This document shows positions 3,982-54,475 of a DNA stretch of 64,000 nucleotides, in pieces. The position numbers and the translations under genes are program-made. Location: NCBI RefSeq assembly GCF_022808695.1, contig NZ_JAKZKW010000001.1:310001-374000 (forward strand), read 5' to 3'. The DNA is from Fundidesulfovibrio soli. Lineage in GTDB: Bacteria > Desulfobacterota > Desulfovibrionia > Desulfovibrionales > Desulfovibrionaceae. The notes under the pieces were generated by a model. The model did not search any database, had not been told where the DNA came from, and saw nothing but the letters and a program-made list of their open reading frames with translations. How positions within the stretch are numbered: the first letter of the stretch is position 1; the number at the start of each line of letters is the position of its first letter.

Positions 3982-4257
3982 ATGAACAAAAGCGAGCTTA
4001 TCAACACCCTGGCCGAAAGCCGCGACATTCACGCCGACGAGGCCTCCGCCGTGGTCAACTCGTTCATCGACTCCATCAAGCAGGCCCTCGTCGATGGGGA
4101 CCGCGTGGAGATTCGCGGCTTCGGCAGCTTCAAGGTGAAGGGCTACAAGGGCTACACCGGCCGCAACCCCAAGTCCGGGGAAGTGGTCAACGTCGCGCCC
4201 AAACGCCTGCCCTTCTTCAGGCCCGGCAAGGAACTCAAGGAATATCTCAACAAGTAG
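3982..4257 (+). CDS. HU/IHF-family nucleoid DNA-binding protein
   Basis: A 91-residue protein of typical HU length, beginning MNKSELINTLAES. The DNA-binding arm is recognisable (GFGSFKVKGYKGYTGRNPKSGE, then APKRLPFFRPGKELK). HU proteins bind and bend DNA with little sequence preference as dimers. A ribosome-binding site (GGAGACAG) precedes the ATG. HU versus IHF subunit cannot be decided by eye; the sequence is nearer HU. Confidence 0.93.
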   Translation: MNKSELINTLAESRDIHADEASAVVNSFIDSIKQALVDGDRVEIRGFGSFKVKGYKGYTGRNPKSGEVVNVAPKRLPFFRPGKELKEYLNK

Positions 4258-4267
4258 GTTCTGCCTC

Positions 4268-5173
4268 ATGCGCCATGTTTCGGCGTTTTTCGCCGCGATG
4301 CTTCTTTTTTCGCTTCTGGCCGGGGCCGCCTTGGCTGAACCGGTGCTCACAGTCGTCTTTTCGGGCAACAGCTGGGGCTATCTCAAGCCCTGCCCCACCT
4401 GAGGCAACCACACCATCGGTGGGCTGACCCGGAGGGCCAGCGCTTTCAAACAGTATCGCCCCGCCGCCGGTTCCGCACCGGCTGCGATCTTCATTGCGGG
4501 CGGGTATGAGTTCATCTCCGACGACGGTGCGGACCACGCCGTGGAGGAGGCCTACGGGCCGCTGGTGAAGGCTTACGACTCCCTGCGCTACGACGCGGGC
4601 GCGCTCACCCCGGCCGAGGCGGCGAAACTGGCCTCCAAGGGCATCGCCGCCCCCAAGGGCTGGGTGACGCTCGACCCCAAGGAGCCCAGGACCCAGCTGA
4701 TCGATACGCCCAAGGGCAAGATCGGCGTCGTGTTCTTCCCCATGAGCAAGAAGCCGGGCGACGGCCCCACCGAGGACCAGGCCTTGGCCATCAACCGCAA
4801 GATCAAGGAGCTGCGCTCCCAGTCCGTGATGGTCGTCGGCGTGAGTCCCTGGGGCGTGCAGGCCGAGTCCGACTATCTGGAGAAGACCCGGCCGGACCTC
4901 GACCTGCTGCTGGGCAGCGGCCCCGGCGTGGGCTTCTCCGCCAAGCCCTACGTGGGCGGACGCATCCTCTGGATGCACAGCTACAGCAAGGGCAAGGCCA
5001 TCTACACGCTTGATCTGCTCGCCATGCCCGGCGACAGGAACTTCAAGTGGGAGATGGGCAGCAACTATACGACCCAGGCCCTGGTGCTGGACGAGAAGAT
5101 CCAGCCTGACCAGGAGATGACGGAACTGCTGCAGGACGTACCCGACCCTGGCGACAAGACCGCGAAGCAGTAA
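4268..5173 (+). CDS. UshA-like secreted protein, candidate selenoprotein (in-frame UGA at codon 45)
   Basis: Reading from ATG 4268 gives a clear signal peptide (MRHVSAFFAAMLLFSLLAGAALA, cut after residue 23), then GYLKPCPT, an in-frame TGA at 4400-4402, and GNHTIGGLTRRA. The frame then stays open to 5173. Reading the TGA as selenocysteine gives a 301-residue protein with a CPTU (CxxU) motif. The segment resembles the start of 5'-nucleotidase (UshA)-type phosphoesterases (GYLEPC...GGLARR), and UshA-like (seleno)proteins are, from memory, a known family in these bacteria. A SECIS-like hairpin lies just downstream. Without recoding only a 44-residue peptide would form, although the downstream ~255 codons are clearly coding. 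Nearly all of the metallophosphatase core motifs are absent, so activity is unknown. Confidence 0.82.
4423..4441 (+). promoter_or_regulatory. SECIS-like hairpin downstream of the UGA codon
   Basis: GCTG (4423-4426) pairs with CAGC (4438-4441) and CCC (4428-4430) with GGG (4434-4436), separated by one A-C mismatch, with a GGA apical loop (4431-4433). The loop begins 29 nt after the UGA (4400-4402) and starts with G. This fits the general bacterial SECIS description: a stem-loop within the coding sequence about 16-37 nt downstream with a G in the apical loop. Confidence 0.6.
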
Positions 5174-5221: not shown

Positions 5222-6106
5222 ATGCAGTTTTCAGGAGCCTTCACGGCGCTCGTGACCCCGTTCAAGAACGGCAAGGTCGACGAGGAAGCGTACCGTGCGC
5301 ACATCGAATGGCAGATCGAAGAGGGCATCGACGGCCTGGTTCCCTGCGGAACCACCGGAGAGTCCCCCACCCTCTCCCACGCTGAGCACGAGCAGGTCGT
5401 GCGCATCTGCGTGGACCAGGTGAAAGGGCGCGTTCCGGTGCTTGCCGGGGCCGGGTCCAACAACACCATCGAAGCCATCGACCTGACCCGTTGCGCCAAG
5501 GACGCCAAAGCCGACGGGGCACTGCTCATCACCCCCTACTACAACAAGCCCACACAGGCTGGGCTCATCGAGCACTTCAAGGCCATCGCCAAGGAAGTGC
5601 CCATGCCCATCATCGTCTACAACGTGCCCGGCCGCACCGCCGTGAACCTGCTGCCCCAGACCGTGGCGGCCCTGCGCAAGCAGGCCCCCGAGGTTGTGGG
5701 CATCAAGGAGGCCACCGGCAACCTCTGCCAGGTCTCCGACCTGATCGAGTACTGCGGCGAGGATTTCATCATCCTCTCCGGCGACGACTTCACCGTGCTG
5801 CCCACCCTGGCGGTCGGCGGCCACGGCGTCATCTCGGTGAGCTCCAACGTCGCCCCCGGCCTGATGCGCAAGCTCTGCAAGGCTTGGCGCAAGGGCGACG
5901 TCAAGAAGGCCAAGCGGCTGCACTACAAGCTGGCCCCCATCAACCGGGCCATGTTCCTTGAGACCAACCCCATTCCGGTCAAAGCCGCGCTGGGGCTCAT
6001 GGGCCGCATCACCCCTGAAATACGCCTGCCGCTGGTTGGCTTGTCCGCCGACAACGAGGCCAAGCTGGCCGACGTGTTGCGCAAGGCGGGGCTGATCGCC
6101 GCGTAG
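5222..6106 (+). CDS. dapA: 4-hydroxy-tetrahydrodipicolinate synthase
   Basis: A 294-residue enzyme of the lysine/meso-diaminopimelate pathway that condenses pyruvate with aspartate semialdehyde. The Schiff-base lysine is K162 in GIKEATG and the catalytic tyrosine Y133 in IVYNVPGRT. GTTGES (residues 43-48) is the substrate-binding loop. Length and start (ATG 5222, eight bases after GGAGGG) are standard. A strong terminator follows at 6215. Confidence 0.97.
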   Translation: MQFSGAFTALVTPFKNGKVDEEAYRAHIEWQIEEGIDGLVPCGTTGESPTLSHAEHEQVVRICVDQVKGRVPVLAGAGSNNTIEAIDLTRCAKDAKADGALLITPYYNKPTQAGLIEHFKAIAKEVPMPIIVYNVPGRTAVNLLPQTVAALRKQAPEVVGIKEATGNLCQVSDLIEYCGEDFIILSGDDFTVLPTLAVGGHGVISVSSNVAPGLMRKLCKAWRKGDVKKAKRLHYKLAPINRAMFLETNPIPVKAALGLMGRITPEIRLPLVGLSADNEAKLADVLRKAGLIAA

Positions 6107-54025: not shown

Positions 54026-54475
54026 CTAATGCGCCCCGGACGCTACGAGAGGCTTGAACTTGAAGTCAGCCACGCGCTGCGGGTTATGGCAGACTACGCA
54101 GTCGGACAGCTTGGGCTTGGCTTGAATCAGCTTGGGGTCGCCGTTTGCGGCATGCGCGGAGCCGGGGCCGTGGCAGGTCTCGCAGCCCACGTACGACAGG
54201 TCGGGGGTCTTGTCCTTGCTCACGAAGCCGCCAGGCTTCTTGTAGCCCGTGGTGTGGCACTCATAGCAGCCGTTGATCTCCTCCTGCGTTAGCTTGGGGA
54301 TCATGACGGCAATGGAGTTCCAGGAATGAGACTTCTTGGAATACTTCGAGAAACTCTCGAACTGTGTGGTATGACACTGCCCGCAGGCCTTACTGCCAAC
54401 ATATACAGCCTGAGCATCGGCCAAGGAAGGGAAAAAGAAAAGAGACACGAACAAAACAACAACCAGTCGATTCAT
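54026..54475 (-). CDS. Periplasmic tetraheme cytochrome c
   Basis: A 149-residue protein with a signal peptide (cut near ADA, residues 19-21) and four CxxCH sites: CGQCH (31), CYECH (70), CETCH (98) and CVVCH (126). Spacing and the [11 protein letters not shown] segment are like cytochrome c554-type proteins, not the classical tetraheme c3. Further His residues could be distal ligands. It is upstream of, and parallel to, the heme-c chemoreceptor, so the pair may share expression. Confidence 0.92.

Follow-up and report, generated by a model that had tools for sequence, protein, structure and literature searches.

A putative selenoprotein of UshA-like family 2 in Fundidesulfovibrio soli and the hairpin downstream of its in-frame UGA

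Introduction

UshA-like proteins with selenocysteine (Sec) have been noted before. Two earlier papers (PMC2398784, PMC9312934) contain a COG0737 UshA-like group with a CxU motif, and a 2026 review (PMC13188914) lists the NCBIfam family NF049981, 'UshA-like (seleno)protein family 2', with a CxxU motif and marks it as GenBank-annotated. Bacterial selenocysteine insertion hairpins (bSECIS) are modeled with an upper stem of 4-16 bp and an apical loop of 3-9 nt that has a G within its first two positions and lies 16-37 nt from the UGA (PMC13188914). In the literature searched, NF049981 is mentioned in a single paper, and a functional study of the family was not found.

Here we analyse a locus in a 64,000-nucleotide stretch of the Fundidesulfovibrio soli genome (contig NZ_JAKZKW010000001.1, positions 310,001 to 374,000), which we call the window and in which all coordinates without a genome or locus prefix are given. 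An initial annotation made from the letters alone had proposed a selenoprotein here and had pointed to earlier UshA-like (seleno)proteins, which the sources above and the existence of a dedicated NCBIfam model bear out. The gene, labelled ushA2 in this analysis, is a further member of this catalogued family, which is itself not new.

Results

The reading frame and its in-frame UGA

The features used below are as follows.

3982..4257, plus strand: HU-like DNA-binding protein gene, the conserved upstream neighbour (from the ORF list, named from its signature)
4268..5173, plus strand: ushA2, UshA-like (seleno)protein family 2, 301 codons with Sec at codon 45 (NF049981 match)
4268..4336, plus strand: codons 1-23, an N-terminus that looks signal-like to the eye and ends ALA
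4391..4402, plus strand: CxxU motif C42-P-T-U45 (from the translation and homologue alignment)
4400..4402, plus strand: putative Sec-UGA codon (53 TGA and 6 Cys at the aligned codon of 59 homologous genes)
4423..4441, plus strand: candidate bSECIS hairpin, stem 4423-4430 with 4434-4441, loop 4431-4433 (GGA), A4427 and C4437 unpaired
5222..6106, plus strand: dapA-like gene, the conserved downstream neighbour (ORF from TTG 5210, ATG at 5222; named from its signature)

The sole internal stop of the frame 4268-5173 is the TGA at 4400-4402 (codon 45, context PCPT-U-GN), beyond which the frame stays open through to the TAA at 5171-5173. Three statements in the initial annotation agree with the window: an in-frame TGA at codon 45 with an open frame after it, a putative N-terminal signal peptide (to the eye, residues 1-23 are signal-like), and a truncation by gene callers to near 4541, since the mechanical ORF list indeed assigns GTG 4541 as the start. 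The segment lost to a caller starting there includes codons 46-91, and it is informative when compared with the nearest named locus, that of Fundidesulfovibrio agrisoli SG106, whose protein is 93% identical to the ushA2 product. Codons 46-91 differ between the two by nine synonymous and no nonsynonymous changes, and codons 92-301 by 28 synonymous and 15 nonsynonymous changes. Codons 46-91 are therefore under strong selection at the protein level.

Sec or Cys at one aligned codon

The read-through protein was matched in 53 of 79 genomes, the genome of the window being one of the 79. All 60 match rows from these 53 genomes were read and counted as 59 genes, two rows on one contig (G015:C2) being merged as a single gene that we assume to be split by a frame change. 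At the position of codon 45 there is a TGA in 53 of the 59 genes and Cys in the other six, with no third residue, which is what the initial annotation would have predicted of a true Sec site. The site lies six codons ahead of the GG of a GG[LMVF]xR motif in 58 genes and eight codons ahead in L110. The possibility of a sequencing error, raised at the outset, is untenable because the TGA recurs in independent genomes.

The N-terminal piece of the split gene (L115) is counted among the Sec genes yet stands outside the protein alignment, which holds 58 sequences. There, counting solely the alignment columns that the window protein occupies, just two Cys, His or Met positions are widely conserved: Sec or Cys at codon 45 (58/58) and C42 (54/58). 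Two Sec members have lost the first Cys of CxxU and retained Sec (L034, PIKAU; L112, PEAGU); C42 is thus not essential, and Sec seems from the alignment to be the more essential residue. Elsewhere in the family, a tandem pair (L049, G030:C1:2736741-2738497) places a Cys copy with a perfect hairpin beside a Sec copy, an arrangement suggestive of a recent Sec-to-Cys change.

Sec machinery

Genes for the four components selA, selB, selC and selD, whose presence had been named as a check on the proposal, are all found in the genome of the window, each over its cut-off. The tRNA-Sec (selC) scored 79.1 bits and has the anticodon TCA; because a tRNA-Ser in the same genome and 5 of 14 controls also exceed the RF01852 cut-off, the selC call rests also on the TCA anticodon reported by ARAGORN. 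The match to selB scored 373 bits, that to selA, ~1.6 kb upstream of it, 603.9 bits, and selD 336.2 bits. The selD match itself (L127, G000:C2:32828-33736) contains one in-frame TGA, and SelD of this genome is probably also a selenoprotein, judging by its sequence.

Across the set, selB is over the cut-off in 71 of 79 genomes and in 49 of the 51 with a Sec form of ushA2 (the genome of the window included). The remaining two are G019 (430 contigs, 95% complete), in which selB is not over the cut-off, and G027 (67% complete), in which the selB match is partial only. Just two genomes have Cys forms only. In one of these, G014 (95% complete, 3 contigs), no selB match exceeds the cut-off; selB is present in the other, G033, so the Cys forms do not simply follow loss of the machinery.

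A hairpin maintained beyond the protein sequence

The hairpin at 4423-4441 folds as GCUG-a-CCC-GGA-GGG-c-CAGC, with three pairs next to the loop, then a single A-C mismatch, which falls within the five-pair core, and four outer pairs. The initial annotation had described a hairpin with a G-rich apical loop and had proposed scanning it with a bSECIS model. Such a hairpin is present, its GGA loop (3 nt, G first) beginning 28 nt past the UGA, and both loop and distance fall within the published bounds; the stem is broken in the window by the one mismatch, although relatives keep the hairpin. The mismatch arises from a Thr in place of Ala before the RR of the protein, a substitution that the window protein shares with two close relatives (52 of 58 members have Ala). 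Three stretches of 51-81 nt, taken from the UGA onward, are not unusually stable relative to dinucleotide shuffles (z of -0.71, +0.91 and +0.96), and an Rfam scan at E up to 10 returned just three unrelated weak families. By itself the window hairpin is therefore unremarkable, and it is the comparison of sequences across genes that raises it above chance.

Most Sec genes carry GGCCC-GG(C/A)-GGGCC at 26-38 nt beyond the U of the UGA, overlying the conserved codons L-A-R-R-A. To remove the protein constraint, synonymous codons were reshuffled with the codon usage of each gene (for L110, which has an insertion, with the reference frame shifted by 6 nt). All five core pairs are present in 44 of 53 Sec genes, where the shuffles predict 7.0, and in one of six Cys genes, where they predict 0.3. 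The one Cys gene with a full core, L017, lies directly upstream of a Sec copy in genome G030. At the two Arg positions of the hairpin, CGG or AGG is used in 97 of 104 cases, versus 217 of 548 Arg codons further downstream in the same 52 genes. In a DNA alignment of 52 of the 53 Sec genes (L110 lies outside both this alignment and the Arg count), 93.3% of pair cells hold standard pairs, a value that none of 500 shuffles reached, and slid controls gave 51.6% at most. Two pairs have changed on both sides, and as many did so in 40 of 500 shuffles, such that compensatory double changes alone offer modest support; paired changes also occur at third codon positions, for example in L020, L110 and L111. 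Taken over the family, these sequence comparisons indicate that the hairpin is maintained at the RNA level through the choice of synonymous codons.

The full core is missing from 9 of the 53 Sec genes. Two loci of genus g50 (L055:1423-1482 and L114:1985-2044) keep the TGA with none of the five core pairs, and may use a different form of SECIS. The Cys form of G033 (L022), found in a genome with selB, is without the family core and has another stable hairpin at that place, which only 0.6% of its synonymous shuffles equal.

Family assignment and more distant relatives

The window protein matches NF049981 with 290.8 bits (cut-off 140, E 8.8e-87), its residues 27-289 covering positions 1-262 of the 262-position profile, and C42-P-T-U45 supplies the CxxU motif of the family. 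With a whole-profile match, CxxU and one Sec in common, we found no feature that separates the protein from NF049981; the Thr-for-Ala change described above is shared by its two close relatives. No Pfam family exceeds its cut-off on this protein, and AhpC-TSA was rejected at 12.5 bits, with 26 required.

The nearest other family is NF041198 (UshA-like PCGU), the counterpart of the COG0737 CxU group in PMC2398784, which has a similar N-terminal motif and, in its PCGU loci (L084-L086, L107), a gap of five residues from Sec to GG. It is distinguished by CxU rather than CxxU and by a profile of 519 positions as compared with a protein of 301 aa, and membership of the window protein was rejected at 38.6 bits, well short of the required 275. 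Searched against the whole genome, NF041198 gave ten matches, none over the cut-off and none with an internal stop: one N-terminal match, which is the ordinary UshA, and nine that cover solely profile positions from 399 on. Within the window, a 209-aa frame at 54053-54415 on the minus strand matches NF041198 positions 401-519 only (E 1.2e-24, below the cut-off). These positions are C-terminal in the PCGU family and are possibly a common cell-envelope domain.

Among 395 genomes drawn from the phylum, the family is matched in 153 at E 1e-3 and reaches the cut-off in six. Remote relatives are at times multiple, with six matches in G374 and three or four in several genomes. Thirty loci from this search, some of them the same genes as in the main set, were fetched and read; 23 have PCPxU or PCGU at the site and in 7 the motif is absent by pattern. 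The gap from Sec to GG is five residues in most PCPxU members, as it is in the PCGU members seen, and six residues in L087, L091 and L095. From these sequences, NF049981 and NF041198 probably share one ancestral Sec site, with one residue's difference in the spacing between Cys and Sec. PCPxU at the same site was seen in remote relatives across the phylum that fall below the NF049981 cut-off (L074, L076-L079, L082, L083, L087-L089, L091, L093, L095, L096).

Predicted fold and the UshA metal site

A structure model built from 10 sequences has a mean pLDDT of 83.5 and a pTM of 0.83. Of the 50 neighbours listed by VIA-align (Z from 22.6 to 18.0), the thiosulfohydrolase SoxB (2wdc) has the top score (Z 22.6, rmsd 2.9, 241 aligned, 13% identity), just over 1 above the best 5'-nucleotidases (2z1a, Z 21.4), and E. 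coli UshA (1ush) has Z 20.8. Foldseek gives a different order by E-value, with human CD73 in its first rows (E 3.0e-11) and SoxB, behind CD73 and UshA, from rank 33. A profile search of the PDB with the sequence recovered 2z1a alone (E 0.033) and did not find SoxB, and profile comparison with the UshA of the same genome (hhalign) gave E 3e-4 and probability 40. The chain is thus predicted to adopt the fold of the 5'-nucleotidase/SoxB superfamily, specifically that of its N-terminal domain. Sharing a fold does not establish a function, and a sulfur role drawn from the modeled likeness to SoxB is only a lead.

The UshA of this genome (L120, 545 aa) has the fold and a weak profile similarity in common with the window protein and differs from it in having metal ligands and a C-terminal domain and in lacking Sec. 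The ligands lie in the UshA motifs NDxH, GD, GNHE, TH and GGHxH. When the window protein is aligned to this UshA, its residues at the eight ligand positions are N, W, Y, P, A, P, G and G, all different from the ligands, in an alignment of low identity that is least certain around GNHE; the earlier statement that most phosphoesterase motifs are lacking thus holds. At no position is the ligand residue retained in more than 8 of 58 members (the maximum, reached by the Asp of the first position), and Gly replaces both histidines of GGHSH, in 58 and 55 of 58. In the columns that the window protein occupies, no His is widely conserved among the members. The UshA of this genome has a 5_nucleotid_C domain, which is not among the Pfam matches of the window protein at E up to 1.

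Gene order

An HU signature lies upstream of 40 of 53 Sec genes and two of six Cys genes, and a dapF or dapA signature downstream of 40 of 53 Sec genes (dapF 21, dapA 31, both 12) and none of the six Cys genes; the dapF and dapA signatures are simple patterns and some flanks are too short to tell. From the sequences, the order HU - ushA2 - (dapF) - dapA points to vertical inheritance and not by itself to a function. We considered a tie to diaminopimelate (DAP) synthesis on the basis of this order and rejected it, finding support for no mechanism; DapA and DapF are cytosolic enzymes.

Discussion

Several lines of sequence evidence make it very probable that ushA2 encodes a selenoprotein in which the UGA at 4400-4402 is read as selenocysteine. 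Decoding would proceed via the short hairpin with its G-loop starting 28 nt downstream, with SelA, SelB, SelC and SelD of the same genome supplying the insertion machinery. If instead the UGA were a true stop, or the gene a decaying pseudogene, the ORF from GTG 4541 would be a separate or dead gene, and mechanical ORF calling does begin there. This reading is extremely unlikely: such a stop would not be expected at a single aligned codon in 53 genes with Cys in the remaining six, nor would codons 46-91 differ from F. agrisoli by nine synonymous changes and none that alter the protein, nor a hairpin be preserved through synonymous choice; the genome also has the complete Sec machinery. A subtler objection is that conservation of the GGLARRA protein motif produces the hairpin incidentally and that some other, unseen element directs Sec insertion. 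The stem does lie over the most conserved protein segment, with several paired bases set by the amino acids; L055 and L114 have the TGA without the hairpin, and a stable one persists in two of the Cys genes, L017 and (in a different register) L022. The excess of full cores over that expected from protein-preserving shuffles (44 observed, 7.0 expected, of 53), the absence of the core from five of six Cys genes and the paired changes at third codon positions in L020, L110 and L111 nevertheless leave this objection with little chance of being correct.

What the protein does is a separate matter from Sec insertion. With its putative signal-like N-terminus it would be exported to the periplasm, where Sec, placed in the loop that follows strand 1, may act as a redox or nucleophilic selenol, with C42 as the resolving partner (through a selenenyl-sulfide) in most members. 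Its substrate would most likely belong to the thiols/disulfides, reactive sulfur species or oxidants of the periplasm. It could be argued that metal-dependent phosphoesterase or thiosulfohydrolase activity, as in UshA or SoxB, persists in this protein, with Sec and C42 serving as replacement ligands; the predicted fold matches SoxB and the 5'-nucleotidases, and C42 and U45 fall in the loop after strand 1, the site of the first metal ligands of UshA. We regard this as improbable, given residues N, W, Y, P, A, P, G and G at the ligand positions, Gly at the GGHSH histidines (58 and 55 of 58) and a protein in which 5_nucleotid_C was not found; metal binding by Sec and Cys is ranked lower because no His position is widely conserved. 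Since the ligands are replaced, the C-terminal domain is absent, and C42 and Sec are the sole widely conserved Cys, His or Met positions, we favour, on the model and alignments, a non-hydrolytic redox role for a metal-free selenol/thiol protein that is probably not a phosphoesterase.

A broader scenario can be offered tentatively, and we hold it to be somewhat less likely than not: across a bacterial order, an exported protein of 5'-nucleotidase/SoxB fold may have swapped its two-metal hydrolase site for Sec, mostly within an HU - ushA2 - (dapF) - dapA cluster, to become a metal-free selenol enzyme, perhaps one that acts on thiols or reactive sulfur in the periplasm of sulfate reducers.

The hairpin comparisons provide independent evidence at the RNA level for a catalogued selenoprotein family that is without a functional description in the literature searched. 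The locus also bears on annotation, in that gene calling without Sec rules drops both the signal-like N-terminus and the key residue. Finally, the family would be an example of a hydrolase fold apparently turned to selenol chemistry.
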